Shown: positions 3,422-43,721 of the stretch, piece by piece
Layout: each line of letters starts with the position of its first letter
Numbering within the stretch: the first letter of the stretch is position 1
NCBI GenBank assembly: GCA_002707685.1
Contig: PANQ01000002.1
Location: 54,145-116,786, forward strand
From: Porticoccus sp.
Lineage (GTDB): Bacteria > Pseudomonadota > Gammaproteobacteria > Pseudomonadales > Porticoccaceae
Direction of reading: 5' to 3'
DNA: 62,642 bases
The notes under the pieces: generated by a model
What the model saw: the letters and a program-made list of their open reading frames with translations, nothing else
The model's database searches: none
What the model was told of the DNA's origin: nothing
Program-made: the position numbers and the translations under genes

Positions 3422-4766
3422 GAAACGTATGAATCCGCTATTGATCGGCGGCGCGGTAGTAGCTGTATTGTGTTTGTCCTTGGTGATGTGCTCTGAGAGC
3501 AAAGTCAGCCACCAGCCTATCGAGCAGGTGCCGGGTTATGATCCTGCTGCCAAGCGTGAGGATGGCGATACCCAAACTGACACTATTCGCGCATTGCAGG
3601 CTTATGCCCGTGAAGCGGTCAGCAAAGCCGATGCCTTGCATGAGTCTACAGAAGACAAGATGGAACAAGTGCTGGAAAACCGGCAGCAACTCTCAGCACT
3701 GACTCATTCCAGTGAAGACGCACAGCAACAACTCGCGGATACCAAAGCAACTATTACCTCGCTCGAGCAAACGCTGGCGAGCTTGCAACGTGAGCTGGCC
3801 GATGTGCGCGGTGAGCAAGCGTTGGCAAAAACGCCATTAAATGAAGAAGGTCTCCCAATAGGTTTTGGTTTTGATGAACAAGGCGTATTGCGAGACGACC
3901 CCAATCAGGGGGAGTGGTTTAACCCTCTCGATTGGGCTGAACCAGAATCAGAGGGTGGCGAGAGCAGTCGTTTTACCGGCTTGCTGCAAGGCCCAACGGT
4001 GAGCGCAGAACCTGTCGAGGAACAGGCATCGGCATCTAAGCCCGAGGTAGTGATTGAGCCGGTGTATACCTTACCGAAAGATGCCACGCTCACCGATGGC
4101 CTAGCGCTGACTGCGTTAATTGGTCGCATCCCCGTCGAGGGGCAAACGCCTGATCCGTACCCCATAAAAATCTATATAGGCAGAGAAAATCTGTTAGCCA
4201 ATGGTCACGAATTGCCGGAAGTTGAAGGCATGATATTTAGTGGCCTGGGTTTTGGTGATTGGAACTTGTCTTGTGTCAGCGCCCGGCTGATGTCTGCCAC
4301 GTTTATTTTTGAAGACGGTTCCATTGTCAATCACAGCAGCGCGGGTCAGCCCTTGGGTTATATCTCTGATCCCAGCGGTGTGCCCTGTGTTGCCGGGCGC
4401 TTTGTCACAAATGCACCAGCATTTCTATCGCAACGGGTGGGGCTTGCTGCTCTCGGTGCAGCGGGCTCGGCCTATGCCGAAGCCCAACAGCAGCGCCAGA
4501 CCTCAGCACTCACGGGTACGACAACCAGTACGGTGAGTGGGAATATCAACAAGCTGGCTGCGGGAGAAGCAGTGCAATCGGCCACCGATGAAGTCAGTGA
4601 ATGGCTTTTGGCCAGACAGAAACAAAGTTTCGATGCGGTGGTGGTGAATCCTGGTGCGGCAGTATCCGTGCATCTGGATCGTAGCCTGCCGTTGGATAAG
4701 AGTTCGATTATTAGGAGGTTGCGATATGCACAAGACGATACGCACGCTCGCACTGATCTTGATTAG
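3414..4766 (+). CDS. ICE protein, TIGR03752 (PFL_4705) family, TraB-like
   Basis: A 450-residue VirB10/TraB-like protein. It has one membrane helix (about residues 8-26), a long coiled coil (about 55-130, rich in E, Q and L), a flexible linker, and a C-terminal domain with GLALTALIGRIPVEG and a conserved pair of cysteines (LSCVSARL, SGVPCVAG). An upstream start at 3372 is open, but ATG 3414, behind GAGGAGG at 3401-3407, fits the family and gives an N-terminal membrane anchor. It spans the envelope and links the inner membrane to the outer-membrane core. Confidence 0.85.
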   Translation: MAEKRMNPLLIGGAVVAVLCLSLVMCSESKVSHQPIEQVPGYDPAAKREDGDTQTDTIRALQAYAREAVSKADALHESTEDKMEQVLENRQQLSALTHSSEDAQQQLADTKATITSLEQTLASLQRELADVRGEQALAKTPLNEEGLPIGFGFDEQGVLRDDPNQGEWFNPLDWAEPESEGGESSRFTGLLQGPTVSAEPVEEQASASKPEVVIEPVYTLPKDATLTDGLALTALIGRIPVEGQTPDPYPIKIYIGRENLLANGHELPEVEGMIFSGLGFGDWNLSCVSARLMSATFIFEDGSIVNHSSAGQPLGYISDPSGVPCVAGRFVTNAPAFLSQRVGLAALGAAGSAYAEAQQQRQTSALTGTTTSTVSGNINKLAAGEAVQSATDEVSEWLLARQKQSFDAVVVNPGAAVSVHLDRSLPLDKSSIIRRLRYAQDDTHARTDLD

Positions 4767-5082
4767 CACAGGGTTAATCAGCGGCTGTGCCAGCTCTAAA
4801 AGCCGGGTGTTTGGAAAAGACATGCCAAGCATGAAGGTTATTCACGATAGTAGGTTTCAGAAAGAAGATGCTGTTCCATTAGAAAAGCCCTTACGTGAAG
4901 TGCAGTTGAAAGAGCCAGTAACTGATTCAGATTTTCAGTGGTTACCGAACCCCACATTAACTATGTATGTGTTCCCACATTTGAGTAGTGCAGGACATCC
5001 GGTGCCCGGATACAGCACGTTTTTTAGGCTTTATACCCAGGATCATATTGCCGCGCCGGGTGAAACTAAGGGTTGGGAGTAA
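4726..5082 (+). CDS. Conjugative transfer lipoprotein, TIGR03751 family
   Basis: A 118-residue lipoprotein with an 18-20 residue signal and lipobox LISGC (Cys21). It matches TIGR03751, the TraV/VirB7-like lipoprotein of GI-type T4SS. The frame is open from 4654, but ATG 4726 sits behind a strong AGGAGGT at 4713-4719 and begins the signal peptide, so it is the start. It overlaps the TraB-like gene by 41 nt. The mature part contains a proline-rich LPNPTLTMYVFPHL segment typical of the family. Confidence 0.85.
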   Translation: MHKTIRTLALILISTGLISGCASSKSRVFGKDMPSMKVIHDSRFQKEDAVPLEKPLREVQLKEPVTDSDFQWLPNPTLTMYVFPHLSSAGHPVPGYSTFFRLYTQDHIAAPGETKGWE

Positions 5083-5085
5083 TTC

Positions 5086-7821
5086 ATGTTGACGGGTAAA
5101 AAGGATAAGCAAGCCAGTCGTTTGGTGACGGATCAAGATATTTCCAATTTGTACCGCCGTCCAGAGTCATTATCGGATTGGCTACCGTGGGTTGATTTTG
5201 ATGAAGCGACTCAAACATTCACTCTGGAAGACGGTTACAGTGCGGCCGCCATGTTTGAGATTGTGGGTGTATCTACTGAAGCACGATCAGAGCGTTTCTT
5301 AGAAGAAGTGCAGACCAATATTCAGACGTGCATAAACCACACGATTCCTGCCCACGATAACCCTTTTGTGTTGCAGTGCTATGTGTCCGATGAAGATTCA
5401 TTGTCCGCTTTAGCCAAAACGCTCGGTAAGTACGCCAGCGAAAACCAAACCCAATCGAACGCTGAACACCGGCAGCTCACCAGTAACTTTGTGGGCCGGA
5501 TGCAACGCCACTTCAAACACGTTACGCACAAAGGCGGACTATTTGAAGATACCACGGTAACGGGAGGTGACTGGCGCGGAAAGGTTCGACGCGTGCGGGT
5601 ATTTTTGTACCGCCGCCGAGACACCAAAGACCACTACAACATTGATCCCGTCATGGAAATTAATCAGGTAGCTGAGCGATTTGTGACTCAGATGGTTGCC
5701 TCGGGCATAGGTATTCGGCGCTGCAATGATCAGGATTTATATGCCTGGCTGTTACGCTGGTTTAATCCCACGGCTGATATTACAGGTGGTGACCTGGATG
5801 CCTTGACGGAGCTGACCGAATTGCCCAAGCCGAAAGATCGGCCCTTTGGGCATGACCTGTCCCAGTTACTGTTTCTCTCCCAGCCGGAATCCGATCAAGA
5901 ACACGGTGTGTGGTGGTTTGATGACATGCCGCATCGGGCCATTGCTGTTGATGCTTTGCGGCGTAAACCCTTTCCTGGTCATTTCACCGGCGAGCGTCGC
6001 ATTGGTGACAATCTCTATGCCCTGTTCGATAAATTGCCCGAAGGCTGTGTTTTGGCGATCACCATCACGGTAATGCCACAAGACAATGTTGAAAATCATA
6101 TTGTGCAAATACTTAATGCCGCCAAAGGTGAAACTGCTGAGGCGATGGCGGCAGAACAAGATGCAAAAGAAGCTTTGAGGTGGATGTCACACGGTGACTA
6201 TTTGTTGCCCACGACGATAACCTTATTTACTCGTGGTAACGATTTGGTTGAGCTGCAAAAGCGCACCAATGAAGTCAATGCGCTATTGCTGGCCAATGGC
6301 CTGCATCCCATTCGAGAAAAAGATGAGTTGCTGCCACTGGATACCTACATTCATCAGTTACCCATGAATTACGAGCCCAAACGGGACAAACTGAGCCGTA
6401 AAAGCCGCTTAGTGTTTTCCAGTGATTTGGCCAATTTATTGCCGTTCTATGGTCGTAGCAAAGGTACGGGGAATCCTGGTTTGGTGTTTTTCAATCGGGG
6501 CGGCGAGCCACTAACCTTTGATCCACTCAATAAAGCAGATCGTGCCAAGAATGCCTTTGGCCTGGTGCTGGGGCCACCGGGGTCGGGTAAATCTGCCTTG
6601 ATGGTGTATATCTTGTTACAGGTCGCAGCGATCTATGGGGCGAGAATCTATGTAATCGAAAAAGGCGGTTCCTTTAAGTTGTTTGGTGACTACTGCAAGT
6701 ATTTTGGCTTGTCGGTCAATCAAGTGACCCTCCACCCCAAAGAAGACGTTAGTTTGCCACCGTTTTCTGATGCCTATGAAATGTTGGAAAAGGAGGCGGC
6801 GAAACAACGCACCCTGAATAGCGAAGCCTCACTGGATGCCTCAGACAGTGACGATGAAGATGACGAAGAACGCGATCTTCTTGGAGAAATGGAGCTGAAA
6901 GCCCGCATTATGATCACGGGCGGCGACAGTAAAGAAGAAGCCTTAATGTCACGGGCTGACCGTCTCACTATTCGACAAGCTATCATCAAAGCCGCGCAAG
7001 ATAAATTAGCGTCCGGCAGCAAAGAAATTGTACTCACTGAGGATGTTGTGGCGGCGCTCAATCAGATTTCCCTGGAGGAAGATAGTACTCCCAAACGCCG
7101 CGAACGCGCCAAAGACATGGCCGACGCGATGGCATTGTACTGTTCTGGCACTGCCGGACATTTCTTTAATCGACCCGGTAAAGCCTGGCCGGAAGCCGAC
7201 GTCACTATATTGGAAATGGGACTGCTAGCGAATGAGGGTTATGAAGACCAACTTGCCCTCGGTTTTATGGGCTTAATGAACCAGATCAATGGCGTCGTTG
7301 AACGCGAGCAGTATTCACATCGCCCTACCTTTGTCTTGGGAGACGAAGCTCACCTAATTACCACTAATCCGTTACTGGCTATATTCCTGGTTAAGATCGT
7401 CAAGATGTGGCGGAAGCTGGGTGCCTGGTTGTGGTTGGCGACTCAGAACCTAGAAGACTTTCCCGATACAGCTAAGAAGCTGCTAAGCATGTTCGAGTGG
7501 TGGATAGCGATGGTTTGCCCGAAGGAAGAAATCGAACAAATATCACGTTTCAAAGACCTAACCGACGAGCAAAAGCATATGCTATTGGCTGCTCGTAAAG
7601 AGCCGGGTAAATACACTGAGGGCGTGGTGCTGGCCGACACCCTTCAATGCTTATTCCGCAATGTGCCACCGCCATTGGCGTTAGCCTTGGCCATGACAGA
7701 GAAACATGAAAAGCAGCAGCGAGCTGAAATCATGCGATCCCAACATTGCTCTGAGCTAGAGGCGGCTTTTGCGGTAGCCAATGAGCTGGTCGATAGGGCC
7801 TTTGCTATTTCTAAAAAATAG
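5086..7821 (+). CDS. Conjugative transfer ATPase, TIGR03744 (PFL_4706) family, VirB4/TraC-like
   Basis: A 911-residue cytoplasmic ATPase that powers pilus assembly and DNA transfer. Walker A is LGPPGSGKSALM (about residue 490) and Walker B is FVLGDEAHLI (about 745); the sensor-like LATQNLEDF follows. The N-terminal half matches the TraC/VirB4 non-catalytic domain. An unusual acidic run (SDDEDDEERD, about 585-597) lies in an insert between the Walker motifs; such inserts are common in this subfamily. It is the last gene of the first transfer operon; the next transfer gene is 1.26 kb away, past a block of minus-strand cargo. Confidence 0.93.
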   Translation: MLTGKKDKQASRLVTDQDISNLYRRPESLSDWLPWVDFDEATQTFTLEDGYSAAAMFEIVGVSTEARSERFLEEVQTNIQTCINHTIPAHDNPFVLQCYVSDEDSLSALAKTLGKYASENQTQSNAEHRQLTSNFVGRMQRHFKHVTHKGGLFEDTTVTGGDWRGKVRRVRVFLYRRRDTKDHYNIDPVMEINQVAERFVTQMVASGIGIRRCNDQDLYAWLLRWFNPTADITGGDLDALTELTELPKPKDRPFGHDLSQLLFLSQPESDQEHGVWWFDDMPHRAIAVDALRRKPFPGHFTGERRIGDNLYALFDKLPEGCVLAITITVMPQDNVENHIVQILNAAKGETAEAMAAEQDAKEALRWMSHGDYLLPTTITLFTRGNDLVELQKRTNEVNALLLANGLHPIREKDELLPLDTYIHQLPMNYEPKRDKLSRKSRLVFSSDLANLLPFYGRSKGTGNPGLVFFNRGGEPLTFDPLNKADRAKNAFGLVLGPPGSGKSALMVYILLQVAAIYGARIYVIEKGGSFKLFGDYCKYFGLSVNQVTLHPKEDVSLPPFSDAYEMLEKEAAKQRTLNSEASLDASDSDDEDDEERDLLGEMELKARIMITGGDSKEEALMSRADRLTIRQAIIKAAQDKLASGSKEIVLTEDVVAALNQISLEEDSTPKRRERAKDMADAMALYCSGTAGHFFNRPGKAWPEADVTILEMGLLANEGYEDQLALGFMGLMNQINGVVEREQYSHRPTFVLGDEAHLITTNPLLAIFLVKIVKMWRKLGAWLWLATQNLEDFPDTAKKLLSMFEWWIAMVCPKEEIEQISRFKDLTDEQKHMLLAARKEPGKYTEGVVLADTLQCLFRNVPPPLALALAMTEKHEKQQRAEIMRSQHCSELEAAFAVANELVDRAFAISKK

Positions 7822-9553: not shown

Positions 9554-10559
9554 GCTGCCCGTCATTGCCTTATTGCTTATAACGGCATTCAGTAACCCGG
9601 TTCGTGCATTCGATGCAGAACCTACGACACTGACATTGAGCGATATTACTCAGTCGATGACGCTCGACCGATCCTGCCTAAACTACTGCATTACCGGCGT
9701 ATGTGTCTGGCTTCGATGCAGTATTTACGAATGCTCGATAGAAACCAGTATTCGTGTCCGACATTACAACCCCGATCTGATTGTCAGTGTGTTTGATAAA
9801 CCCGGCGATAACCCCTGGCGGGAAGCGGAAGCAATTTTTGGTGATATAGAACGGCAACTAACGGATTCCATTGTGGCACTTTTTCATGGTGCCGAAGCTG
9901 GCGGAGGTCATCGCGTTGAAGGTGGACATACTGCTACTGACCAGAGCCTCCGGTTTAAAGAAGTAACGGCCATTGGACACCCTTTTAGCTCCATCACCGA
10001 TTTTATAGCCAATAGCGGTTATTACTGCCCATCGGAAGCCGAATCGTTTCAACCTTACTTATCATCTTCCCTTGATGCGTTGACCTGGCGCTTGGGTTTA
10101 CCTGAGCTGTTGTACCTACACAATCTAATTCCAGGCCGTCGTGTGGTGGGGGCTGGTATTCAGCAGCAGTGGGGTGCGGTGTGGCCGCGTACAGGCTTTA
10201 TCAATCAAAAGGACGATACCAAAGCGTCCGCTGTAATTGCGCAACGTGCGGGGAACATCGTTACGCAAACGCGGCAACCGCATGTTTATACCGCACTGGA
10301 TGGCAATGGCTATAACCGTACCTGGCTACCAGGTGAACTGGTCGAGAATGACCCTGATACAGGTGTTTGGCAAATGCTGGCACCGAAGATGGATGCCCAG
10401 TGCTATGTATTCGGTGAAAACGATGTGTATCGGAGGGCATGGTCATCTGGCCGCATTGCTCATGACAATCGCTATGCCTTTTCCTTATGGCGGCCTTATC
10501 AGTGTTGTGAAGAGCAGGGTGCCTACTTGTTTACGGTGCCATTGGAGATTTGCATATGA
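9546..10559 (+). CDS. ICE protein, TIGR03756 (PFL_4710) family, TraU-like
   Basis: A 337-residue exported protein with a signal peptide (about residues 1-22, ending NPVRAFD) and a cysteine-rich N-terminal region (CLNYCITGVCVWLRC), typical of TraU-like proteins needed for DNA transfer and mating-pair stabilisation. A second cysteine pair, CCEEQG, is near the C-terminus. The many cysteines suggest disulfide bonds in the periplasm. It overlaps both neighbours (8 nt upstream, ATGA downstream). Confidence 0.87.
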   Translation: MNRLPVIALLLITAFSNPVRAFDAEPTTLTLSDITQSMTLDRSCLNYCITGVCVWLRCSIYECSIETSIRVRHYNPDLIVSVFDKPGDNPWREAEAIFGDIERQLTDSIVALFHGAEAGGGHRVEGGHTATDQSLRFKEVTAIGHPFSSITDFIANSGYYCPSEAESFQPYLSSSLDALTWRLGLPELLYLHNLIPGRRVVGAGIQQQWGAVWPRTGFINQKDDTKASAVIAQRAGNIVTQTRQPHVYTALDGNGYNRTWLPGELVENDPDTGVWQMLAPKMDAQCYVFGENDVYRRAWSSGRIAHDNRYAFSLWRPYQCCEEQGAYLFTVPLEICI

Positions 10560-11884
10560 AGATTATTAAACATTGCGCCATAGGATTCTTCTTCGTTACA
10601 GGCGCTCATTTAGCCTTGTCGGAACCAGCGCCTAACGACGACAGCCTGTTTTACTACAAAATTGGCGGCGGTCGGGACATAGCCATTCCTCCCAGTCTGA
10701 ACATTACTACTATAGATTTGTCATTGAATGCGTCCGCTTCTGCGTTGTCCTGTAGTGGCTTTGACCCGCTTGTGGCGATTGAGAGTTCGCTGGATAACCT
10801 GAGAAATGGTGTCGATAACGCCGTGAATGCGTTGGAATTGGCGGCATCAGCGGCCATAGCGAATCTACCGGGCTACATCTTACAAAAGGCCAACCCTGGC
10901 CTTTATGACTTGTTTCAGAATGCGTTACTACGCGCAAACGAAGCCTTCTCACTAGCGACCAAAAGCTGTGAGCGCATTCAGTACGAAATAGCCAATGGCA
11001 CTAACCCCTATGCCGAGTGGGTAACGGTGAGTTGGGGTGACTCATGGAAGCGCTCACTGGGAGTTGGCAGTGCCAATATTCACGATGCCGTTGATGATGC
11101 AGAAGACGCTCATAACGATGGCATTGAATGGGTGGGTGGCCAACGGCGAGGTGGGCAAGATCAGCCGCCGATTCGTGTGCTCACCGATGTGGCTTCCGCA
11201 GGGCTGAATATTCTGTCACAACGGCCACCGGAAACTACGGCCAATTTGCCCAGTTCAGCGCCACTGGCAGATCATTTTTCTGGGCCGAATGCTGTCGATG
11301 AGTGGGTTAATAATGTACTCGGTGAAGTCGAAATAGGCATTTGCGATGGGTGCTCCAAGGGCGCTCGCTCCGGCAAGGGGTTGATTCCTTATATAGAACA
11401 AACGACCGAAGACATACTGCCTTTGTTGGTGAGCCTGGTTGCGGGCACTACACGTCCGACGCGGGAGCACCTTAATGAGGTAGAAGCTCCAGGTGTTGCG
11501 ATCACCTTGCAAGTTATTCTGGCTATTCGCCAACTCCCGGCACAAGAGCAATCGATTGTGATTCATAAGCTGGCGCAGGAGGTCGCTGAAGCCAGGGTTA
11601 TGGAAGAGGCGATGATTATACGGCGGCTGTTACTGGCAGGTCGGAAAGAGGGTTACATCGCATCTAATAAAATTGCACAGAAAGAGGTGCAGATCGCTCT
11701 CGATGAGTTAGAGGGAGAAATACAAAACGTCATCTTTGAAAAAGATGCGCGCAATAAGTTTCTCACCTCAACTGTGGTCGAACTGCTGTTGCGTGATAAT
11801 GCCGAGCGTCAGTCATCCCTCACTACACCTGCCTCTACGCCTGAAGATCCTCGTCCGCTGAGTAATGGTGGTGTAGAGCCATGA
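10556..11884 (+). CDS. ICE protein, TIGR03755 (PFL_4711) family, TraH-like position
   Basis: A 442-residue exported protein. A TTG at 10550 is open, but ATG 10556 overlaps the preceding stop as ATGA, has GGAG at 10544-10547 with an 8-nt spacing, and starts a clean signal peptide (MKIIKHCAIGFFFVTGAHLA). An FYYKIGGG-like block near residue 32 and a cysteine-containing central region (EIGICDGCSKGARSGKG) match PFL_4711. The C-terminal third is helical and charged. The protein takes the place of TraH in the TraU-TraH-TraG order; its mechanism is not known to me. Confidence 0.83.
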   Translation: MKIIKHCAIGFFFVTGAHLALSEPAPNDDSLFYYKIGGGRDIAIPPSLNITTIDLSLNASASALSCSGFDPLVAIESSLDNLRNGVDNAVNALELAASAAIANLPGYILQKANPGLYDLFQNALLRANEAFSLATKSCERIQYEIANGTNPYAEWVTVSWGDSWKRSLGVGSANIHDAVDDAEDAHNDGIEWVGGQRRGGQDQPPIRVLTDVASAGLNILSQRPPETTANLPSSAPLADHFSGPNAVDEWVNNVLGEVEIGICDGCSKGARSGKGLIPYIEQTTEDILPLLVSLVAGTTRPTREHLNEVEAPGVAITLQVILAIRQLPAQEQSIVIHKLAQEVAEARVMEEAMIIRRLLLAGRKEGYIASNKIAQKEVQIALDELEGEIQNVIFEKDARNKFLTSTVVELLLRDNAERQSSLTTPASTPEDPRPLSNGGVEP

Positions 11885-12225: not shown

Positions 12226-13793
12226 TGGCAGTTGATAGCACACTCGAACTCTACACTACCTTATTTGGCTGGTTTTTCTATAACAGCATCTGGGATGTAC
12301 TCGTCGCAACGGGCATGGTTTTTTTGCCTTTTCTGGGGATTTTGATTGATACCATCATTCGATCCTATGCCGGGGAAGATGCAGAAGAGGCTGGTAATAC
12401 CACCTTGCGGATTATTGAGGTGGAGTTTTTTATTGCCTTCTTCGTGATTCTGATTGCGGCGGTTCCGGCAACGCCGTTGAATGCCGTTGATTTATCGTTT
12501 ACGCCACGCGCTGTCATTGGCACGCCTGCGCAACCCGTAGCGACCGTGGCCAATTCACGCACGACTTATGGTGGTGGTATTTCTTTCAATGGAGCACCAG
12601 CTAACGTCAATGTCCCCGTATTTTGGTTTGCTGTGATGAGCTTCAGCTCCGGTTTTAATCGTGCCGTTATGGAGGACGTACCACCTACACTGGATTACCG
12701 TGGCTACGCCAATGAGCTGCGGGATGCAACTATCAAAGACCCAGAGCTGCGCCATGAAATCAACGACTTCTTTCGTGATTGCTTTATTGAAGCGCGCTCA
12801 AAGTATCTGACTGAACGGCCAGACAGCGCTGCGATTGATGCACTATTAAACCAGTATGGCGACACCGATACCGACTGGATCGGCTCACATGTCTTTCAGG
12901 AAATAGCCGGATACTACGATAGCCTGCGGTCAGATTCGATCAGGGAAGGTTTTCCCTGGTCGGCGCTGCGGGATGTGGAATGGGATGCCAGTAATCACCC
13001 TGTGTATGGCAAGCCCTATTGCAATGAGTGGTGGCCTAGTATTCAGCAGGCAGTGTTGAATGATTTGGGTGATATTGATCTGCAATCGGCAGCAGCGGAG
13101 CCCGGCTGGGATGCCGTACAACGGCGCGATGTCATTACACAACTAGCACTGATTAACTCACCACCGCGTTGGACAACGCGAGGCTATGACTTTGCCTATG
13201 GCAACACGGTGGATTTCGAGGTGGGTGAACAAAGCGGTATCTTTGTGGCCGTGCAGAATGCCACTCAACAGGGATTGGCGGTGTACGGTTTGGGTAAAGC
13301 ATCCATCTCCTTTGCTGCCTTTCTCCGTGTGTTTTTGGAAGCCGCGCCCATGATTCAATCGTTAGTGCTAATGGGGCTTTATACGCTGTTACCATTTTTT
13401 ATTCTGATCAGTCGCTATAAGTTTTCTTTACTGATCATTGGAGCACTAATCTTGTTTTCCGTGAAGTTTTGGACGGTGCTGTGGTTCTTTGCCTGGTGGG
13501 TTGATCAGAATCTAATACAAGCTTTTTATCCTGATCCTGGAAGTGTAACCACACTGTTTAGCACTGATCTGACGTTAAAACGCATCATCCTTAACTTTCT
13601 AACGGGTGGCCTGTATTTGATTTTACCTATCCTGCTTTCTTTATATCTCGGTTTGGCGGGTATCCGTGCTGCATCACAGTTGGAAGGTGCCACACAAGCT
13701 TTGACTCGTGGCACTTCAGCGGCGGGCAATGTCAGCTTACGAAAACCCAGTTTTAGGAATCGGTCTACGGGTAAAACCAAAGGTGCTAAATGA
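12225..13793 (+). CDS. Conjugal transfer protein with TraG N-terminal domain
   Basis: A 522-residue polytopic membrane protein matching the TraG N-terminal domain that acts in mating-pair formation. Membrane helices are grouped at the N-terminus (about residues 20-70), in the middle after residue 380 and near 450-485, with a large periplasmic region between (about 90-340). ATG 12219 is only 3 nt after GGGAG; ATG 12225 is 9 nt away and was chosen, though the six-nt difference is small. The C-terminal tail is basic (RNRSTGKTKGAK). Last clear gene of the second transfer operon. Confidence 0.88.
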   Translation: MAVDSTLELYTTLFGWFFYNSIWDVLVATGMVFLPFLGILIDTIIRSYAGEDAEEAGNTTLRIIEVEFFIAFFVILIAAVPATPLNAVDLSFTPRAVIGTPAQPVATVANSRTTYGGGISFNGAPANVNVPVFWFAVMSFSSGFNRAVMEDVPPTLDYRGYANELRDATIKDPELRHEINDFFRDCFIEARSKYLTERPDSAAIDALLNQYGDTDTDWIGSHVFQEIAGYYDSLRSDSIREGFPWSALRDVEWDASNHPVYGKPYCNEWWPSIQQAVLNDLGDIDLQSAAAEPGWDAVQRRDVITQLALINSPPRWTTRGYDFAYGNTVDFEVGEQSGIFVAVQNATQQGLAVYGLGKASISFAAFLRVFLEAAPMIQSLVLMGLYTLLPFFILISRYKFSLLIIGALILFSVKFWTVLWFFAWWVDQNLIQAFYPDPGSVTTLFSTDLTLKRIILNFLTGGLYLILPILLSLYLGLAGIRAASQLEGATQALTRGTSAAGNVSLRKPSFRNRSTGKTKGAK

Positions 13794-16561: not shown

Positions 16562-17521
16562 ATGCTCAAACTTATTTGGTTCGTCCAGACGGTGTTTTTC
16601 CTGGTTAGCATGTTGCTGACGGGGCTATTTGCGATGTCGCTCTCCGGAGCTGATTTTGATAGTGTGATGAATCCTAGAGAGAGTGAACAGGCCATATTTA
16701 TGGCGGCTTTGTTCATTTTTATTGGCTGCTGTATTGATATTGGAAAATATCTATTCTGGGTTAATCGACAAATTAGTCGATACTTCAAAGTGCTCAGCCT
16801 TGTTTTGATGGTTTTCTCCTGGCTTGCCAGTTGTGCCTTTTTTATCTCCTCCGAGATGCGGCTAATTAAAGAAGCGCAGCGGCGCTCACCTGAGTATGTA
16901 GCACTTCAGCAAGAAATTGACGGTCTTCAGAAAAATATCGCTATTGAAGAACAGCTGTTGAACAAGAGACTCGGAAGCAGCTATCACAAACAATGGGAAC
17001 AGGCTCAAAATAGCGCGGCCAGGATAGCTGGATTTCAGGCAGAGATAGCAGAGAAGCAATCAGCATTATCACAGGTGGGATTGTCAGCAACAGAGAGCCA
17101 GCTTGAAACCACCAAGCTCTTTATCGGCATTAGTCGCACTCTGAATATCAGCCTAGATTCTGCCAGAACTTTTGGCTATGCGGTCTTAGCTCTGCTGTTG
17201 GAGGTTAGTACTTTGGGCATGATTAGCTTGGCTGGTGCTGAGAAAAGAGCTAATAGCTTGCCCAGCTCCCGTGCTGATGAGCCTGATCTGCAACCCGGTG
17301 ATGATACTGTCGTCGATGAGGAATATAGGCAGAAATTGGCTCAACTCACTTTCGACATACTAAACGGCAAGATTCGGCCCGTTCTGCGAGTTATCAAGAG
17401 TGCTGACTATGACCTTAGCCTGGATCAGATTCGGGCGGTGCTGCGTGATCTACATGCCACCGGAATTCTCGATACCGACATCCGCAATAGCTACAAGCTG
17501 TCAGAAAGAGTGACAAGCTAG
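16562..17521 (+). CDS. Membrane protein with coiled coil and C-terminal winged-helix-like domain
   Basis: A 319-residue protein. Membrane helices are at about residues 4-25, 38-56, 76-98 and, after a coiled-coil stretch (about 105-165), 200-225. The C-terminal 70 residues (YRQKLAQLTFDILNGKIRPVLRVIKSADYDLSLDQIRAVLRDLHATGIL) look like a winged-helix unit. Phage- and plasmid-borne proteins with this layout are known but I do not recognise a named family. No strong ribosome binding site is visible before ATG 16562. It could be a membrane effector or sensor of a cargo module; no function is claimed. Confidence 0.65.
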   Translation: MLKLIWFVQTVFFLVSMLLTGLFAMSLSGADFDSVMNPRESEQAIFMAALFIFIGCCIDIGKYLFWVNRQISRYFKVLSLVLMVFSWLASCAFFISSEMRLIKEAQRRSPEYVALQQEIDGLQKNIAIEEQLLNKRLGSSYHKQWEQAQNSAARIAGFQAEIAEKQSALSQVGLSATESQLETTKLFIGISRTLNISLDSARTFGYAVLALLLEVSTLGMISLAGAEKRANSLPSSRADEPDLQPGDDTVVDEEYRQKLAQLTFDILNGKIRPVLRVIKSADYDLSLDQIRAVLRDLHATGILDTDIRNSYKLSERVTS

Positions 17522-17885: not shown

Positions 17886-19409
17886 TTGACTGCCAATGTT
17901 AGAGACCTTTTAAACAAGGTGGGGCCATGCCTGAGCTCCAGGCTGATTCAGATCATGGTTGATCAGGGCGCAACCCCAGAGGCTGCCCGGAAAAGAGTCG
18001 AGAGGGCTAGTGGGGTCATACGTTTATCAGGTGTTCGATTCGAGAAGAATGCCAAATTCATCTATCTTGACAACCAATATGGTGACGCTAGGTTTTGGGG
18101 GGCTTTAGAGGTTGCATTCAAAACCAACGGTAAAGCCTATTGGGCTGTGATGGTGGGGCTAAAACGAAGAGGTGGTGCTTGCCCCAAATCGCTTTTTCCG
18201 CGTATCTGTGGTGCGCCGATCAGACGCCAAAAACAGCTGTCACCGGAGATTATTCTAGAACGTCTGATCAGCATCCATCTGCTCAAGGAAGTTCAGGATG
18301 ACAAGAGTGGCGAGATATGGATCAGTTTCAACCCCCACTGCTATAACGTCCTAGCCCCTTCCTTAGAGCAGCGGGCCATCGCTATTACAGAGAATCTCGC
18401 CATTGCGGCGATTGCCGATTGGGCAAGAAAGCTGGGATTCGGCAGTTACGCCAAGTTCGCACTACGCAATGATGAAAAGCCACCTGTTGTCTCGGGAATA
18501 ACCTGGGATGTCAGCGCGCCATCCTATGTTAGACCATTAGTTTCAGCCCCCAATGGTGAGATCAAACCAGGATTCTTTGTCTGTGATGTCAGTCTTGGCC
18601 ACCAGATCAGTGATGAAGAGGTGGAGGTATTTGTTCGCAAGTACGATATGGCAGCCTCCCCATCCAAAGTAGCGCCCATCATGGGGTTTCTGGTGGCTGA
18701 TGGGTTTGCTCAAGCTGCTTATGAACGAGCGAGAAGCGTGGGCATCATAGCTGCCACCACGTCGCAGTTATTTGGGCAGGATGTGGCAAAAGCCCTGAAT
18801 GATTTAATTAAAGTGTTGAGCGACACTGGCAAGACTGCAGCCATTAACCCGGAACACCTTGAAAACGTAATGAACCGTTTGACGAGGATTGAAGGGGCAA
18901 GCGCCAACCTTCGGGGGAGTCTGTTTGAACTGGTGGTGGGCAACCTACTGGTTGCGGTCACAGGAGGCTATCTAACCGTTGGGTATAAGATATCCAACAT
19001 TGCCGAACTGGATGTATTGGTGGATCTTGAGGAAGAGGGACGATCCATTATCGTGGAATGTAAAGCTAAAATACCTGGTGCGATGGTCAGCTTGGAGGAG
19101 GTAAAGCGATGGTACAGCAATCGAATACCCTTGATTAACGAAGCGATCCGGCCATATGGTATTAACTATGTTGACCGAAAATTTGAGTTTGAGATATGGA
19201 CCAATGGCACCTTTCATCCTGCTGCCATTGAATGGTTGGAGCAACAGCAGACGGAACTAGATAAACATACTGTTGCTTGGCGGGATGGTGCTGCTATCAA
19301 GCAATACTCCCAGCATGACAATGTTAGCCCACACACGCGGGGGATATTGAGGGATTATTATTTCAACAATCCCAGGACATCAATTTATCCGGCAGACATA
19401 GAGGGCTGA
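17886..19409 (+). CDS. PD-(D/E)XK nuclease-like protein with N-terminal winged-helix region
   Basis: A 507-residue soluble protein, starting at TTG 17886 behind an AGAGAG stretch. The C-terminal third carries a PD-(D/E)XK nuclease core: E348 in RGSLFELVVG, D376 in AELDVLVD and E391-x-K393 in IVECKAK. The N-terminal part (about 1-160) resembles winged-helix DNA-binding sequence (RLIQIMVDQGATPEAARKRVERA). The middle region (about 160-330) shows no recognisable domain. It lies 144 bp before the Gabija-like pair on the same strand. I do not recognise a named family; a defence nuclease or DNA-targeting effector is the most likely role. Confidence 0.7.
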   Translation: MTANVRDLLNKVGPCLSSRLIQIMVDQGATPEAARKRVERASGVIRLSGVRFEKNAKFIYLDNQYGDARFWGALEVAFKTNGKAYWAVMVGLKRRGGACPKSLFPRICGAPIRRQKQLSPEIILERLISIHLLKEVQDDKSGEIWISFNPHCYNVLAPSLEQRAIAITENLAIAAIADWARKLGFGSYAKFALRNDEKPPVVSGITWDVSAPSYVRPLVSAPNGEIKPGFFVCDVSLGHQISDEEVEVFVRKYDMAASPSKVAPIMGFLVADGFAQAAYERARSVGIIAATTSQLFGQDVAKALNDLIKVLSDTGKTAAINPEHLENVMNRLTRIEGASANLRGSLFELVVGNLLVAVTGGYLTVGYKISNIAELDVLVDLEEEGRSIIVECKAKIPGAMVSLEEVKRWYSNRIPLINEAIRPYGINYVDRKFEFEIWTNGTFHPAAIEWLEQQQTELDKHTVAWRDGAAIKQYSQHDNVSPHTRGILRDYYFNNPRTSIYPADIEG

Positions 19410-19553
19410 GATATATTGGGCAATCGCGTGATTTTTCTAGTAAAACCATCGCGGTTTGGCATAAGACATGTACATATAGAGTCTTTCGGCTATTGTGTCA
19501 TCTAATTGTTAGCTTTTTATCTCTAAATCACACCTCCACCAAGGATGGAAAAA

Positions 19554-21194
19554 ATGCAAATTGATCAACTAGTCTTACGCAACTTTAAGGGCTTCAAGGG
19601 GAGGTTTTCGATTGGCTTGAACCCCGGCATGAACATTATCGTTGGGGATAACGAGGCGGGTAAATCCACTATTATTGAGGCAATTAATCTAGCGCTGACT
19701 GGGTTGTTTAATGGTCGGTACTTAAGAAATGAATTGTCTCAGTATCTGTTTAATGAATCGGCAGTTAGTGAGTACATTGCGAGTTTAGCGACAGATGAGC
19801 CAGTTTGCCCGCCTGAAATCCTGATCGAACTGTATCTTACTGGGGGAAATGAAATCGCTTTTTTGGAAGGCGATTTGAATTCTGAGGGAAAGTACTGCAG
19901 CGGTATCTCACTTAGAATCGCTTTTAATGATGATTACAAAGCCGAGTATGAAGCTCTGATCGGTACGGGTGATGTTAAGACACTTCCCATCGAGTACTAT
20001 CACGCGGTTTGGAAAAGCTTCGCACGAGAGACAATCACTACTAGAAGTATCCCAATAAAATCGGCTTTGATAGATTCAGCGGCTGCGCGGCACCAGAATG
20101 GCTCCGATATCTATATTGGTCGTATAGTTAAGGAATTGCTCACCCCAGAAGAAATCGTTAGCGTTTCACAGTCTCATCGTAAGATGAAAGAGAATTTCAT
20201 GGATGATGCCTCTATCGATGCTATTAATAAAAAAATAACTGAAGCCAGCAAGATTACCGATAAGGAAGTCAAGATAGCGGTTGAACTGTCTTCACGTAAC
20301 GCTTGGGAGAGTGGTCTCACCACCTACTTGGATAATATTCCGTTCCATTTCGTCGGCAAGGGTGAACAGAATGTTGTTAAAACTAACCTGGCCTTGTCAC
20401 ACAACAAAGCTAGGGAAGCCAATGTTCTCTTGCTGGAAGAGCCTGAAAATCACTTGTCTCACTCTAAACTCAACCAGTTGGTGAAAACGATCAAAGCAAA
20501 TCAGGCTGAGCGGCAAATCATCATAACTACACATAGTAGTTTTGTCGCTAATAAGCTAGGGCTGGATGATCTAATACTGCTAAGCGATAAAAATACCTTG
20601 AAGTTAAATGAGCTATCCAGCGAAACAAAGCTGTTTTTTGAAAAGATAGCGGGGTACGACACTTTACGGCTGATTTTGTGTAATAAGGCGATATTGGTAG
20701 AAGGGGATTCAGATGAACTAGTCGTGCAGAAGGCGTATAGGATTCAGAATGAAAACCGGTTGCCAATAGAAGATTCGGTTGACGTGATTTCCGTAGGCGT
20801 ATCGTTCTTACGATTTCTAGAAATAGCTGAAAAACTGGATAAGCCTGTATGTGTGGTTACAGATAATGACGGCGATGTTGCTGCGCTGGAGAAAAAGTAC
20901 ACTGATTACCTTGGTGAGAACGCTAAAGATCATATCAAAATTTGTTATGACCATGACGTGGATGGCGGTGATCTCGTGATCGGCCAAAAGGCTTTTAACT
21001 ACAATACTTTGGAACCAAAGTTGGTGAAGGCAAACAGTCTTGAGGCAATGAACTTAATACTCGGCAAGGATTACAAAACTGTCGATGAGCTTCATAAGTA
21101 TATGAAGGGCAATAAAACTGAGTGTGCCTTGAAAATTTTTGAGACAACCGGGGCTATCAACTATCCGCAGTATATTCTGGATGCCCTTGAATGA
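19554..21194 (+). CDS. gajA: OLD family ATPase/TOPRIM nuclease, GajA-like
   Basis: A 546-residue protein with an ABC-type ATPase and a TOPRIM nuclease. Walker A is GDNEAGKST (residues 31-39), Walker B VLLLEEPENHL (about 289), the H-loop ITTHSS (about 323). The TOPRIM motifs are LVEGDSDE (about 380) and TDNDGD (about 437). With the helicase gene directly behind it, this matches the two-gene Gabija anti-phage system, in which GajA cuts DNA when nucleotide levels fall. ATG 19545 is also open, but ATG 19554 has AAGGA eight nt upstream. It overlaps the helicase gene as ATGA. A class 2 OLD nuclease outside Gabija is the alternative. Confidence 0.78.
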   Translation: MQIDQLVLRNFKGFKGRFSIGLNPGMNIIVGDNEAGKSTIIEAINLALTGLFNGRYLRNELSQYLFNESAVSEYIASLATDEPVCPPEILIELYLTGGNEIAFLEGDLNSEGKYCSGISLRIAFNDDYKAEYEALIGTGDVKTLPIEYYHAVWKSFARETITTRSIPIKSALIDSAAARHQNGSDIYIGRIVKELLTPEEIVSVSQSHRKMKENFMDDASIDAINKKITEASKITDKEVKIAVELSSRNAWESGLTTYLDNIPFHFVGKGEQNVVKTNLALSHNKAREANVLLLEEPENHLSHSKLNQLVKTIKANQAERQIIITTHSSFVANKLGLDDLILLSDKNTLKLNELSSETKLFFEKIAGYDTLRLILCNKAILVEGDSDELVVQKAYRIQNENRLPIEDSVDVISVGVSFLRFLEIAEKLDKPVCVVTDNDGDVAALEKKYTDYLGENAKDHIKICYDHDVDGGDLVIGQKAFNYNTLEPKLVKANSLEAMNLILGKDYKTVDELHKYMKGNKTECALKIFETTGAINYPQYILDALE

Positions 21195-22297
21195 ATAAGC
21201 TCATTATTGCTTCTGCAGGATCGGGAAAGACTACGTTTATAGTTGATGATGCAATAACTCAGGCCAAACAAGGAGTTCGCGTCCTAATTACGACTTTCAC
21301 GGTCGCCTGTGAGCAGGAGATTCGCGATAAAGTAGTCAATAAGCTCGGTTTTGTTCCCGACGAAATTAGCATTATCACGTGGTTTTCCTTCCTGTTAAAC
21401 CATGGTGTCAAGCCATTTCAAGGTCGTCTATTCGAATATGATGCCAGAGGGATGATCCTGGTAAATGGGAAGTCAGGCTTCCGGTTTAAAAACAAAAAAG
21501 GTCAGCCTATCTACTGGGGGGAAAAAGATTTCGATAAATTCTACTTCAGTCGAGATAAAAAGGTTTATTCTGATAAATTGGCTCAACTTGTATTGCGCTG
21601 TAATGAGGTTTCGGATGGTAGAGTCTTTGATCGCATTTCAAGGTGTTTTAATAGTATCTATGTAGATGAGGTTCAGGATTTGGCTGGTTATGATTTAGAG
21701 ATTCTTGATGCTCTTTTTAAATCAAATGCTGATGTAACGGTAGTAGGTGACCCTAGGCAGGCAACCTATTCAACGGTTAATGCCAGGAAGAATAAAAAGT
21801 ACGCTAAAGCCAATATTGTTAATTTCTTTGAAGATAGCAAGCTGGAAATTGATACTGACGAAGTGTCTCTCACTACTAATCACCGATGCCATAGTAGCAT
21901 CTGTCAGTTCTCCAATCGGCTTTACCCTGATCTTCCGCAAGCTAAACCTGGACAGGGTGAGCCTACGGGTCACGATGGAATTTTTGCGCTAGATGAGAAA
22001 GAGCTGAATCAGTATCTAGCTGATTACAACCCCATGCAGCTTAGAGATAATGTTAAAAAGAGTGTCAATGACGACTACCCGGTTTTGAATTTTGGTAAAT
22101 CGAAAGGCCTAACATATGAGAGAACTGTCATTTACCCATCCGGGCCTATGTTGAAATGGCTTAAGAACCCTGAAGAGAACTTGACTCAGGTGGCTCGTTC
22201 CAAATTCTATGTTGCTCTAACCCGTGCGAAATACAGTGTCGCCATCGTGCTAAAGGCTAGTGATATAGCCAAAATTGATGGGTTGGAGAAATATTAG
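21191..22297 (+). CDS. gajB: UvrD-like superfamily 1 helicase, GajB-like
   Basis: A compact 368-residue helicase. Motif I SAGSGKTT (8-15), motif II YVDEVQDLAG (about 157-166), motif III VGDPRQATYS (about 185), motif IV TTNHRCH (about 228), motif V GKSKGLTYERTVIYP (about 300) and motif VI YVALTRAK (about 340) are all present. It is clearly shorter than well-studied GajB proteins, which are nearer 500 residues, so the 1B/2B insertion domains must be reduced. Start overlaps the gajA-like stop (ATGA), so the pair is translated together. In Gabija, GajB is thought to sense DNA ends and boost GajA activity. Confidence 0.78.
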   Translation: MNKLIIASAGSGKTTFIVDDAITQAKQGVRVLITTFTVACEQEIRDKVVNKLGFVPDEISIITWFSFLLNHGVKPFQGRLFEYDARGMILVNGKSGFRFKNKKGQPIYWGEKDFDKFYFSRDKKVYSDKLAQLVLRCNEVSDGRVFDRISRCFNSIYVDEVQDLAGYDLEILDALFKSNADVTVVGDPRQATYSTVNARKNKKYAKANIVNFFEDSKLEIDTDEVSLTTNHRCHSSICQFSNRLYPDLPQAKPGQGEPTGHDGIFALDEKELNQYLADYNPMQLRDNVKKSVNDDYPVLNFGKSKGLTYERTVIYPSGPMLKWLKNPEENLTQVARSKFYVALTRAKYSVAIVLKASDIAKIDGLEKY

Positions 22298-22517
22298 GCA
22301 CAGGCACCTTTAAATTGTTCGGGGCAGTATTTGAGGACTCGGGGTCTATAGTTGCTCGGAATCAGCGCACGGGTTGGATGTTTGGAGGTTGCGGGGTGTG
22401 ACTGAAGTTTCTAGAGGTGGAGATTGATTACTCAGTATTGTATCCCAGATGCATCCCAAGGCAGTTTTCGCTTGTAAGAGGTGAAAATAATCCGCTGCAT
22501 CTACGGAAGGGGGGAGT

Positions 22518-22604
22518 TGGTACCAGAGGCCGGACTCGAACCGGCACGTCCTCGCGGACAAGGGATTTTGAATCCCTCATGTCTACCAATTTCATCACTC
22601 TGGC
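22518..22604 (-). tRNA. tRNA-Leu(CAA), complete, probably carried by the element
   Basis: An 87-nt leucine tRNA with encoded CCA end. The acceptor stem is GCCAGAG/CTCTGGT (first pair G.U), the discriminator A, and the anticodon loop TTCAAAA gives CAA. A GTCCGCGAGGAC-type long variable arm and TTCGAGTCC T-loop are present. Compared with the half copy 90 bp upstream, D-stem ATG/CAT replaces GTG/CAC and the anticodon stem is AGGGA/TCCCT instead of GGGGA. Both partners change together within this copy, which suggests it evolved as a functional tRNA. No convincing promoter of its own lies in the 50 bp upstream. Confidence 0.92.
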
Positions 22605-22654
22605 ACTGAGTGCAAGCTTACAGATTTTTTCCTAGGATACAAAACAGCTTGCTT
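22605..22654. other. 50-bp spacer between tRNA-Leu copies, with inverted repeat
   Basis: GCAAGCT (22612-22618) and AGCTTGC (22646-22652) form a perfect 7-bp inverted repeat around a T-rich interior that holds the palindrome CCTAGG. It lies just outside the probable crossover core and could be a recombinase arm site or a structure separating the half-tRNA from the intact tRNA in a common transcript. Confidence 0.4.
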
Positions 22655-22694
22655 ATTTTGAATCCCCTGTGTCTACCAATTTCACCACTCTGGC
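22655..22694 (-). pseudogene. 5' half of host tRNA-Leu, disrupted in the anticodon loop (attachment site)
   Basis: The minus strand reads GCCAGAGTGGTGAAATTGG and on to GGGGATTCAAAAT, then departs from tRNA sequence. This is the 5' half of a tRNA-Leu(CAA). The segment matches the intact tRNA at an exact 90-bp offset with about four differences. The shared block begins at ATTTTGAATCCC (22655-22666), so the break lies in the anticodon loop, a usual crossover site of tyrosine recombinases. I take 22655 as about the right end of the ICE. The left attachment site is not in the window. Confidence 0.75.
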
Positions 22695-22705
22695 ACAGGG
22701 GCGCG

Positions 22706-22733
22706 ATTATAGCAGTGGTCCCCGGAGAAGCAA
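22706..22733 (-). promoter_or_regulatory. Promoter of the tRNA-Leu locus
   Basis: On the minus strand TTGCTT (22733-22728), a 16-bp spacer and TATAAT (22711-22706) are followed by a GC-rich discriminator and the tRNA 5' end 11 nt later. It is a strong sigma70 promoter with the discriminator of a stably regulated RNA gene. It now drives the half tRNA and, 90 bp on, probably the intact copy. Confidence 0.75.
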
Positions 22734-22823
22734 TAGAGCGGTGTGCCTTTCATTGATGGGTACACTGGTTCTGGCGGTGGATTTCCATTACCCTTGCGGC
22801 CTTTTACAAGCCTGCCCAAACGT

Positions 22824-25000
<2,177 letters not shown>

Positions 25001-43477: not shown

Positions 43478-43553
43478 GGGTCGTTAGCTCAGTTGGTAGA
43501 GCAGTTGGCTTTTAACCAATTGGTCGCTGGTTCGAATCCAGCACGACCCACCA
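43478..43553 (+). tRNA. tRNA-Lys(TTT)
   Basis: A 76-nt tRNA with encoded CCA. The acceptor stem is GGGTCGT/ACGACCC, the anticodon loop CTTTTAA, reading AAA/AAG, and the T-loop TTCGAATC. A terminator lies 12 bp after the 3' end. Confidence 0.97.
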
Positions 43554-43564
43554 AATTCAGAAAT

Positions 43565-43588
43565 GCCGGGCTTGTCCCGGCTTTTTTG
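43565..43588 (+). terminator. Terminator after tRNA-Lys (copy A)
   Basis: GCCGGG-CTTGT-CCCGGC (43565-43581) and a T-run. The same hairpin recurs at 43912-43935. Confidence 0.85.
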
Positions 43589-43721
43589 TGTTTGCCTGTT
43601 GCTGGATGAGAACAGAGGTTCGAGCCGAGCGGCGTAAGCCGTGAGACAGCGCCACCGTCGGTGGCGTCCCGTAGGGCGAGCGCAAGGCGCGAGTAATCCA
43701 GCACGACCCACCAAATAAATA

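Follow-up and report, generated by a model that had tools for sequence, protein, structure and literature searches.

What becomes of a bacterial tRNA gene that is split in its anticodon loop by an integrating element and is not put together again? The question is raised by a stretch of 62,642 nt of Porticoccus sp. DNA, analysed here at its full length and called the window, which belongs to a genome of 2.75 Mb in 40 contigs with 98.98% completeness (G000). Here the first 40 nt of a host tRNA-Leu remain, ending with ATTCAAAAT, and a different, complete tRNA-Leu(CAA) stands behind them. The initial annotation had reported this arrangement and read it as an element that carries a whole tRNA-Leu and seems to borrow the host promoter. 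The observation is confirmed and the interpretation as a whole is supported: we consider it quite probable that the locus represents a tRNA-replacing integration of an ICE-like element, whose carried tRNA would be read from the borrowed host promoter. The features of this right junction (attR) are, in window coordinates:

22743..23876 (+): queA (PF02547), first host gene past the attR junction
22728..22733 (-): -35-like hexamer TTGCTT of the host tRNA-Leu promoter, the same hexamer at the same place in the empty-site relatives L065, L066 and L068
22706..22711 (-): TATAAT, the -10 box of the same promoter, with 11 nt between it and the broken half
22655..22694 (-): host tRNA-Leu(CAA), 5′ half only, interrupted at the anticodon loop; the matching 3′ half lies outside the window
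22655..22663 (-): attR shared attachment core ATTCAAAAT, anticodon loop plus closing pair
22605..22654 (-): element spacer of 50 nt between the core and the carried tRNA
22635-22644: inverted arm-like site TTTTGTATCC inside the spacer
22518..22604 (-): complete element-borne tRNA-Leu(CAA), CCA encoded (ARAGORN; Rfam, 52.8 bits)
22491..22507 (-): weak terminator-like hairpin with a T-rich tail, 3′ of the carried tRNA
22439..22458 (-): two direct repeats of arm-like type (TGGGATGCA and TGGGATACA) on the far side of the carried tRNA

Read on the minus strand and away from queA, the order is TTGCTT, 16 nt, TATAAT, 11 nt, the half, 50 nt and the complete tRNA. The distance from the start of the half to the start of the complete gene is exactly 90 bp, as had been claimed, and both ARAGORN and Rfam place the gene at these coordinates. 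The carried gene had also been said to be no fresh copy of the host gene on account of compensating changes, and these differences are real: its D-stem reads ATG/CAT against GTG/CAC in the host, its anticodon stem AGGGA/TCCCT against GGGGA/TCCCC (the host TCCCC being taken from the 3′ half at the other end of the element), pairing is kept in both stems, and the variable arm differs as well. All 20 scored stem pairs of the carried tRNA are intact (7 acceptor, 3 D, 5 anticodon, 5 T). Terminator-like sites in the region number 2 on both strands together, against 0.6 expected. A search of 369 genomes of the class for a half followed by a whole tRNA returned only the window's own genome, the reversed control pattern returned none of the 369, and the pattern was not found in viral contigs. 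Chance or a tandem duplication by the host was rejected as an origin on the basis of this single occurrence and of G083, which has one copy in the genome-wide pattern check.

Where is the rest of the host gene? The 3′ half was sought at the left end of the element and found there, outside the window (G000:C2:28319-28374), and together with the 5′ half at 22694-22655 it bears out the reported cut in the anticodon loop. ATTCAAAAT occurs at C2:28366 and again at 76799, a distance of 48,433 bp. These 9 bp are all that the two junctions have in common, both junctions are broken and the target is restored at neither, in agreement with the earlier statement that the host gene is not rebuilt in place. 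It is because the shared core is so short that the host gene does not survive integration. A 458-aa tyrosine integrase (PF00589; L039:8578-9954) adjoins the left core copy, so that one end of the element has the integrase next to its attachment site, which is one mark of an ICE; transfer proteins of the TIGR037xx series are another. Among the element genes within the window are:

5086..7821 (+): TraC-type transfer ATPase of an integrating element (TIGR03744, 1181 bits)
10550..11884 (+): integrating conjugative element protein (TIGR03755, 355 bits)
19545..21194 (+): GajA-like protein, element cargo (PADLOC GajA, 721.5 bits)
21191..22297 (+): GajB-like UvrD-type helicase, element cargo (PADLOC GajB, 445.3 bits)

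Further element genes encode TraU, TraG_N, DUF3577, a coupling-protein-like ORF and efflux functions, and no relaxase was recognised among the subset of ORFs scanned. The 48.4-kb element thus appears, from its gene content, to be ICE-like, with a type IV transfer system of the integrating-element kind. The identity of a temperate phage was considered and discarded in view of the conjugation genes (TIGR03744, TIGR03755, TraU and TraG_N). With a close integrase defined as one of at least 65% identity (range 65-96%), none occurs in the viral contigs; the 13 integrase matches in phage records and the 14 in plasmid records are all below 60% identity, at roughly 22-31% over part of the protein, with one of them covering 83%. 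GajA next to GajB makes up a Gabija defence system at the right end of the element. Just before this pair lie element ORFs of 319 and 507 aa (window 16562-17521 and 17886-19409) without Pfam, NCBIfam or PADLOC match at E 0.001. Elsewhere inside the element are a second integrase-like ORF (PF12834/PF12835; L040 3694-4560) and a 1570-aa ORF with weak AAA matches only (L040 11750-16462). At window 43585-43713 (+), directly behind tRNA-Lys(TTT) at 43478-43553, there is a match to RtT RNA (RF00391, 60.1 bits).

What did the site look like before integration? When the two flanks are joined, they give an 87-nt tRNA identical to the gene in the five empty-site relatives fetched (L091, L093-L096), a comparison that covers these five intact relatives. 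As the initial annotation had anticipated for island-free genomes, all five have at this place an intact tRNA-Leu with GTG/CAC; it is the only one there, and its anticodon stem reads GGGGA/TCCCC. All five lack this element, though L091 and L096 carry other insertions behind the tRNA. Among further relatives, at least L067 and L074 show a single-base difference in the D arm. The idea that the Motiliproteus half is a decay product was dropped, as its GGTATAC is also found in the intact tRNAs of L067 and L074. In G071 (L091 4730-13136) the same host tRNA is intact at 4730-4816 and a displaced 3′ half lies at 13081-13136, about 8.3 kb downstream, with an integrase of about 31% identity nearby; the element at this site is, in this member of the genus, a conventional one that rebuilds the tRNA.

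How widespread is the arrangement? Close integrases are rare, occurring in 6 of 112 genomes of the family and 2 of 390 of the order (G000 included in both counts) and at 15 loci of the genome-contig database; five of these loci belong to assemblies that are also among the six genomes of the family. Their hosts are Motiliproteus, Neptuniibacter, Porticoccus, Cycloclasticus, Haliea, Halioglobus, Paraglaciecola and other gammaproteobacterial MAGs; four NCBI orders of Gammaproteobacteria are represented, by Motiliproteus, by Cycloclasticus, by Haliea and Porticoccus, and by Paraglaciecola. A truncated close integrase is also present in an Opitutaceae MAG (Verrucomicrobiota; G126). Within the genus of the window, G072, G081 and G086 have this kind of element. 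At 13 of the 15 loci the integrase adjoins the core and a host 3′ half; of the remaining two, L116 has a masked core and L122 begins within the gene, which is cut by the contig end. Right ends could be located at 13 sites in 12 genomes, that is, in 11 of the 16 close-integrase genomes and in G092, for which the search found no close integrase; in the other five (G113, G116, G118, G119 and G121) the right end was not found. At 12 of these 13 right ends a Leu-CAA is carried behind the host half, and at the thirteenth (G072) the contig ends first.

The carried genes fall into three lineages. Lineage A, with the stem AGGGA/TCCCT, comprises G000 and Motiliproteus G112, whose carried tRNAs are identical and whose right ends are 99.5% identical over 2398 bp. 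Lineage B (GGAGA/TCTCC) comprises G086, G122, G123, G125 and two copies in G126, with the carried tRNA identical in all six, and lineage C, in which the gene contains a group I intron of 281-282 nt, comprises G081, G092, G124 and G115, with identical exons in all four. The stems of the carried tRNA are fully paired in the three lineages, and the host halves that precede it vary from host to host. Because the copies are identical within a lineage behind differing host halves, they show, at the level of sequence, that the carried tRNA travels with the element from host to host. Some sites are less regular. In G126 the ends are about 460 kb apart from the truncated integrase, so this copy is not an intact element; its two sets of broken half and carried tRNA (L153 3911-4202, 6145-6294 and 15566-16003) are separated by 11.6 kb and form part of a repeated unit (about 438 bp, 99-100% identical) that includes a tRNA-Pro sequence, and one of them is split by about 1.9 kb with a transposase-like ORF. 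Haliea salexigens DSM 19537 (L120/L130) has an integrase-side end like that of lineage C and a right end of lineage B, so that its ends look mosaic by eye. In G072 (L080) a lineage B tRNA stands directly behind the host promoter and a long repeat is common with the host half; this arrangement is as likely to be an assembly error as a product of recombination and is excluded from the evidence.

How would the carried gene be expressed? We propose that the tyrosine integrase recombines at the 9-bp anticodon loop of tRNA-Leu(CAA), and that the loss of the host tRNA would be compensated by the complete tRNA-Leu(CAA) inside the presumed attachment arm. This gene is located 50 nt behind the crossover, and after integration it would stand behind the orphaned tRNA promoter of the host. 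A single transcript would then run through the dead 5′ half and the spacer into the whole tRNA, and from it RNase P and the usual endonucleases would release the mature molecule. The host promoter had been called strong: TATAAT and TTGCTT are in place and base shuffles of the 50 nt upstream of the half score as high in 6 of 2000 cases, but a general promoter scanner with a stricter -35 rule calls no site in 22300-22900, since the -35 hexamer agrees at only 3 of 6 positions. TATAAT is found upstream of the host half at 10 of the 13 sites and is absent at G125 and at both Opitutaceae copies. The carried tRNA itself had been described as lacking a clear promoter, and in the window spacer (22605-22654; lineage A) we found none above chance, the score of 6/12 being reached by 1652 of 2000 shuffles. 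The lineage C spacer scores 7/12 (1948 of 2000 shuffles) and that of lineage B 8/12 (531 of 2000). In the modelled transcript the leader forms hairpins of its own and the acceptor stem of the carried tRNA pairs with itself at 0.96-1.00; misfolding of the carried tRNA caused by the dead half was discarded for the reason that the leader folds on its own.

Since no spacer scores above chance and the host promoter stands upstream, borrowing of this promoter is the likeliest reading of the sequences. The alternative that comes closest keeps the replacement and has a promoter in the spacer drive the carried gene, with the host promoter adding read-through only. In all six lineage B sites a -10-like box with five of six matches (TAAAAT or TACAAT) lies 9 nt before the carried tRNA though the spacers differ, and lineage B may thus have a weak promoter of its own. 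The three sites without TATAAT upstream of the half point in the same direction, as does phage Fionnbharth, whose tRNA is described in passages of PMC10865867 as having its own strong promoter. Nevertheless, shuffled sequences reach the spacer scores in the proportions given above, and the spacer also contains arm-like sequence; on balance, we consider a promoter in the spacer rather unlikely as the main driver of the gene.

If the host promoter is borrowed, what does the position within the attachment arm imply? Beyond the carried tRNA lie two direct repeats of TGGGATRCA, and TTTTGTATCC is inverted in the spacer. Similar repeat pairs are found in the integrase-side arms of L112, L117, L120 and L123, and imperfect ones only in that of G000. 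Lambda-type integrases serve as the model for arm-type sites, and by analogy these repeats are probable candidates for such sites, with the carried tRNA embedded between them. In the four lineage C copies the anticodon loop is interrupted by the group I intron (RF00028, 80.7-88.3 bits, above the gathering score), which separates position 32 from position 33 and so divides the attachment core in the DNA; when the outer sequences are joined, fully paired stems result in all four. We infer from this placement that the intron would shield the carried gene from the integrase. G080 has no close integrase and presents the host promoter, an altered half, an element-type spacer of 51 nt, a tRNA that equals the host gene and a terminator-like hairpin. 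In its dead half (L082, G080:C107) five bases are replaced by a 22-nt perfect hairpin with an 8-bp stem; the upstream flank is 89% identical to the occupied G081, and on the downstream side nothing longer than matches of 63 and 58 bp, to G072 and G035 flanks, was found. The likeliest history suggested by these sequences is that the element was lost by recombination between the core of the carried tRNA and the left junction; a carried tRNA without interruption would then be able to serve as an attachment core.

Taking these observations together, we tentatively suggest, as a possibility that falls somewhat short of likely, that the attachment arm is a tRNA promoter trap and that the lineage C intron shields the replacement tRNA, unshielded copies recombining away. 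The carried tRNA would be silent or weak in the circular element and be switched on only behind a host promoter, which would bind the host to its element. In lineage C the attachment core would be split in the DNA and restored in the RNA, a shield against the element's own integrase and those of related elements, and carried copies without this shield could be lost by recombination, as the apparent scar in G080 suggests.

Does the host then depend on the element for this tRNA? In G000, 8 of the 34 Rfam tRNA matches are at least 81 nt long, and ARAGORN assigns them to Ser (three), Tyr and Leu TAG, CAG, GAG and CAA. By the pattern search, Leu-CAA sequence is confined to the carried gene and the orphaned 3′ half. 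Owing to its gap limit, this search overlooks tRNA-Leu whose variable arm is short, the 3′ halves of G112 and G115 being examples, and intron-split tRNAs are invisible both to it and to Rfam. The suggested search for another Leu-CAA thus returned no further complete one by Rfam, ARAGORN or pattern search. The same holds for Haliea salexigens DSM 19537 (G122), where 42 Rfam tRNA matches were placed and Leu TAG, TAA, CAG and GAG are present, with CAA only as the carried copy. The cell seems, from these gene sets, to rely on the invading element for its Leu-CAA tRNA. The claim that the host becomes dependent may apply to these two genomes, judged by their gene sets, and fails as a general rule: G116 has a close integrase beside one Leu-CAA 3′ half (L114/L232), a separate contig of this genome (L129, G116:C65) carries an intact Leu-CAA whose sequence differs, and G124 (Paraglaciecola) has a close integrase and a further intact Leu-CAA on contig C155 (L140). 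Because these two hold a second intact gene, dependence would not be general and would be limited to hosts without another Leu-CAA; some hosts, judging from G116, would have had two Leu-CAA genes before insertion. On the same contig of G124 (L140/L159, ~49504-49690), a Leu(CAA) is broken in the T-loop and an intact Leu-CAA follows 54 nt later, which resembles the present arrangement and is possibly the work of a different integrase.

Dependence may not be absolute either. tRNA-Leu(UAA) can read UUG by wobble, and leuX is dispensable in Escherichia coli. tRNA-Leu(UAA) is intact in Haliea; in G000 it is interrupted by a probable group I intron (G000:C8:19640-20364, L041 1640-2364; RF00028, 46.1 bits with a cut-off of 50, E 1e-9). 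This G000 gene, the second Leu isoacceptor of the genome to be split in the anticodon loop, is preceded by two truncated 5′ pieces of tRNA-Leu. One may ask whether the carried tRNA is translational cargo that lies near the end by chance, the loss of the host tRNA being tolerated because UUG is read by tRNA-Leu(UAA) or by a second Leu-CAA. The presence of tRNA-Leu(UAA) in both genomes and the further Leu-CAA genes of G116 and G124 fit this view, as does the codon usage of the element, UUG being the commonest leucine codon in six element ORFs (95/328) as against 88/474 in eight ORFs to the right of the island. But the carried tRNA is of the same isotype as the broken one and occupies the same place at 12 of the 12 readable right ends, and it is the only tRNA found in the whole G000 element, so that we regard cargo placed by chance as improbable. 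Hardly credible is a conventional island in which the intact tRNA is the rebuilt host gene and the half a displaced remnant of a duplicated site: rebuilding is the usual outcome for tRNA islands and the G071 insertion in the same tRNA leaves an intact gene, but the intact tRNA here departs from the host sequence in the D-stem, the anticodon stem and the variable arm, recurs unchanged in Motiliproteus behind another host half, and has the host 3′ half at the far end of the element, and the empty sites contradict the proposal.

If tRNA replacement is true, this mode of integration is not confined to phages and is shared by conjugative-type elements found in four orders of Gammaproteobacteria and, on the evidence of one MAG, in a second phylum. 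An element whose core is short and lies within a conserved anticodon loop would not need to match the tRNA halves of each host, and its own tRNA would pay for the damage, which may explain the wide host range. Some bacteria would then have a portion of their decoding set on mobile DNA. For the intron, its lineage points to a concrete use within a tRNA gene, namely that the gene is hidden from the recombinase at the DNA level. Haliea salexigens DSM 19537, being an isolate, makes tRNA replacement testable.

How does this arrangement compare with known systems? In the open-licence literature searched we found no report of a replacement tRNA in an ICE, of its placement downstream of a borrowed promoter or of its interruption by an intron. 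Ordinary tRNA islands (PMC4383910) have the same tRNA target, a tyrosine integrase and a displaced fragment at the far end, whereas here the split gene is not restored in place. ICEApl1 and ICEHin1056 are ICEs located, as here, in a gammaproteobacterial tRNA-Leu, that for TAA, and ICEApl1, as described in passages of PMC4908127, rebuilds its tRNA, unlike the present element. ICEMh1-like ICEs sit in the Pasteurellaceae tRNA-Leu for UUG, and their direct repeat GATTCAAAATC is the anticodon loop of the same isotype as here (passages of PMC6861422). For ICEMh1PM22 these passages mention a disrupted copy upstream of a full-length tRNA; they account for extra copies by how attL and attR are built and by subsequent recombination, and speak neither of a replacement role nor of promoter borrowing; the same anatomy may thus be present in ICEMh1-like ICEs and have been read differently.

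The closest parallel is tRNA-dependent lysogeny, known in the actinobacteriophages Fionnbharth and Gaia, the latter with a tRNA-Leu-CAA and an 8-bp core (passages of PMC10865867). The signs of replacement seen here are that only ATTCAAAAT is common to both ends, that neither junction is whole and that nearly all right ends carry the isotype. The principle is the same, with actinobacteriophages as its bearers there and an ICE-like element here. In Fionnbharth, according to the same passages, the tRNA overlaps gene 37 and its promoter was measured, whereas here the tRNA lies in the presumed attachment arm directly behind the host promoter and contains an intron in one lineage. That intron matches the full-length group I model (RF00028) as other group I introns do, and the gene that hosts it here is the element's own replacement tRNA. 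What the present locus and its relatives would add to a principle already known from phages is the ICE form, the placement of the tRNA and, in one lineage, the intron.
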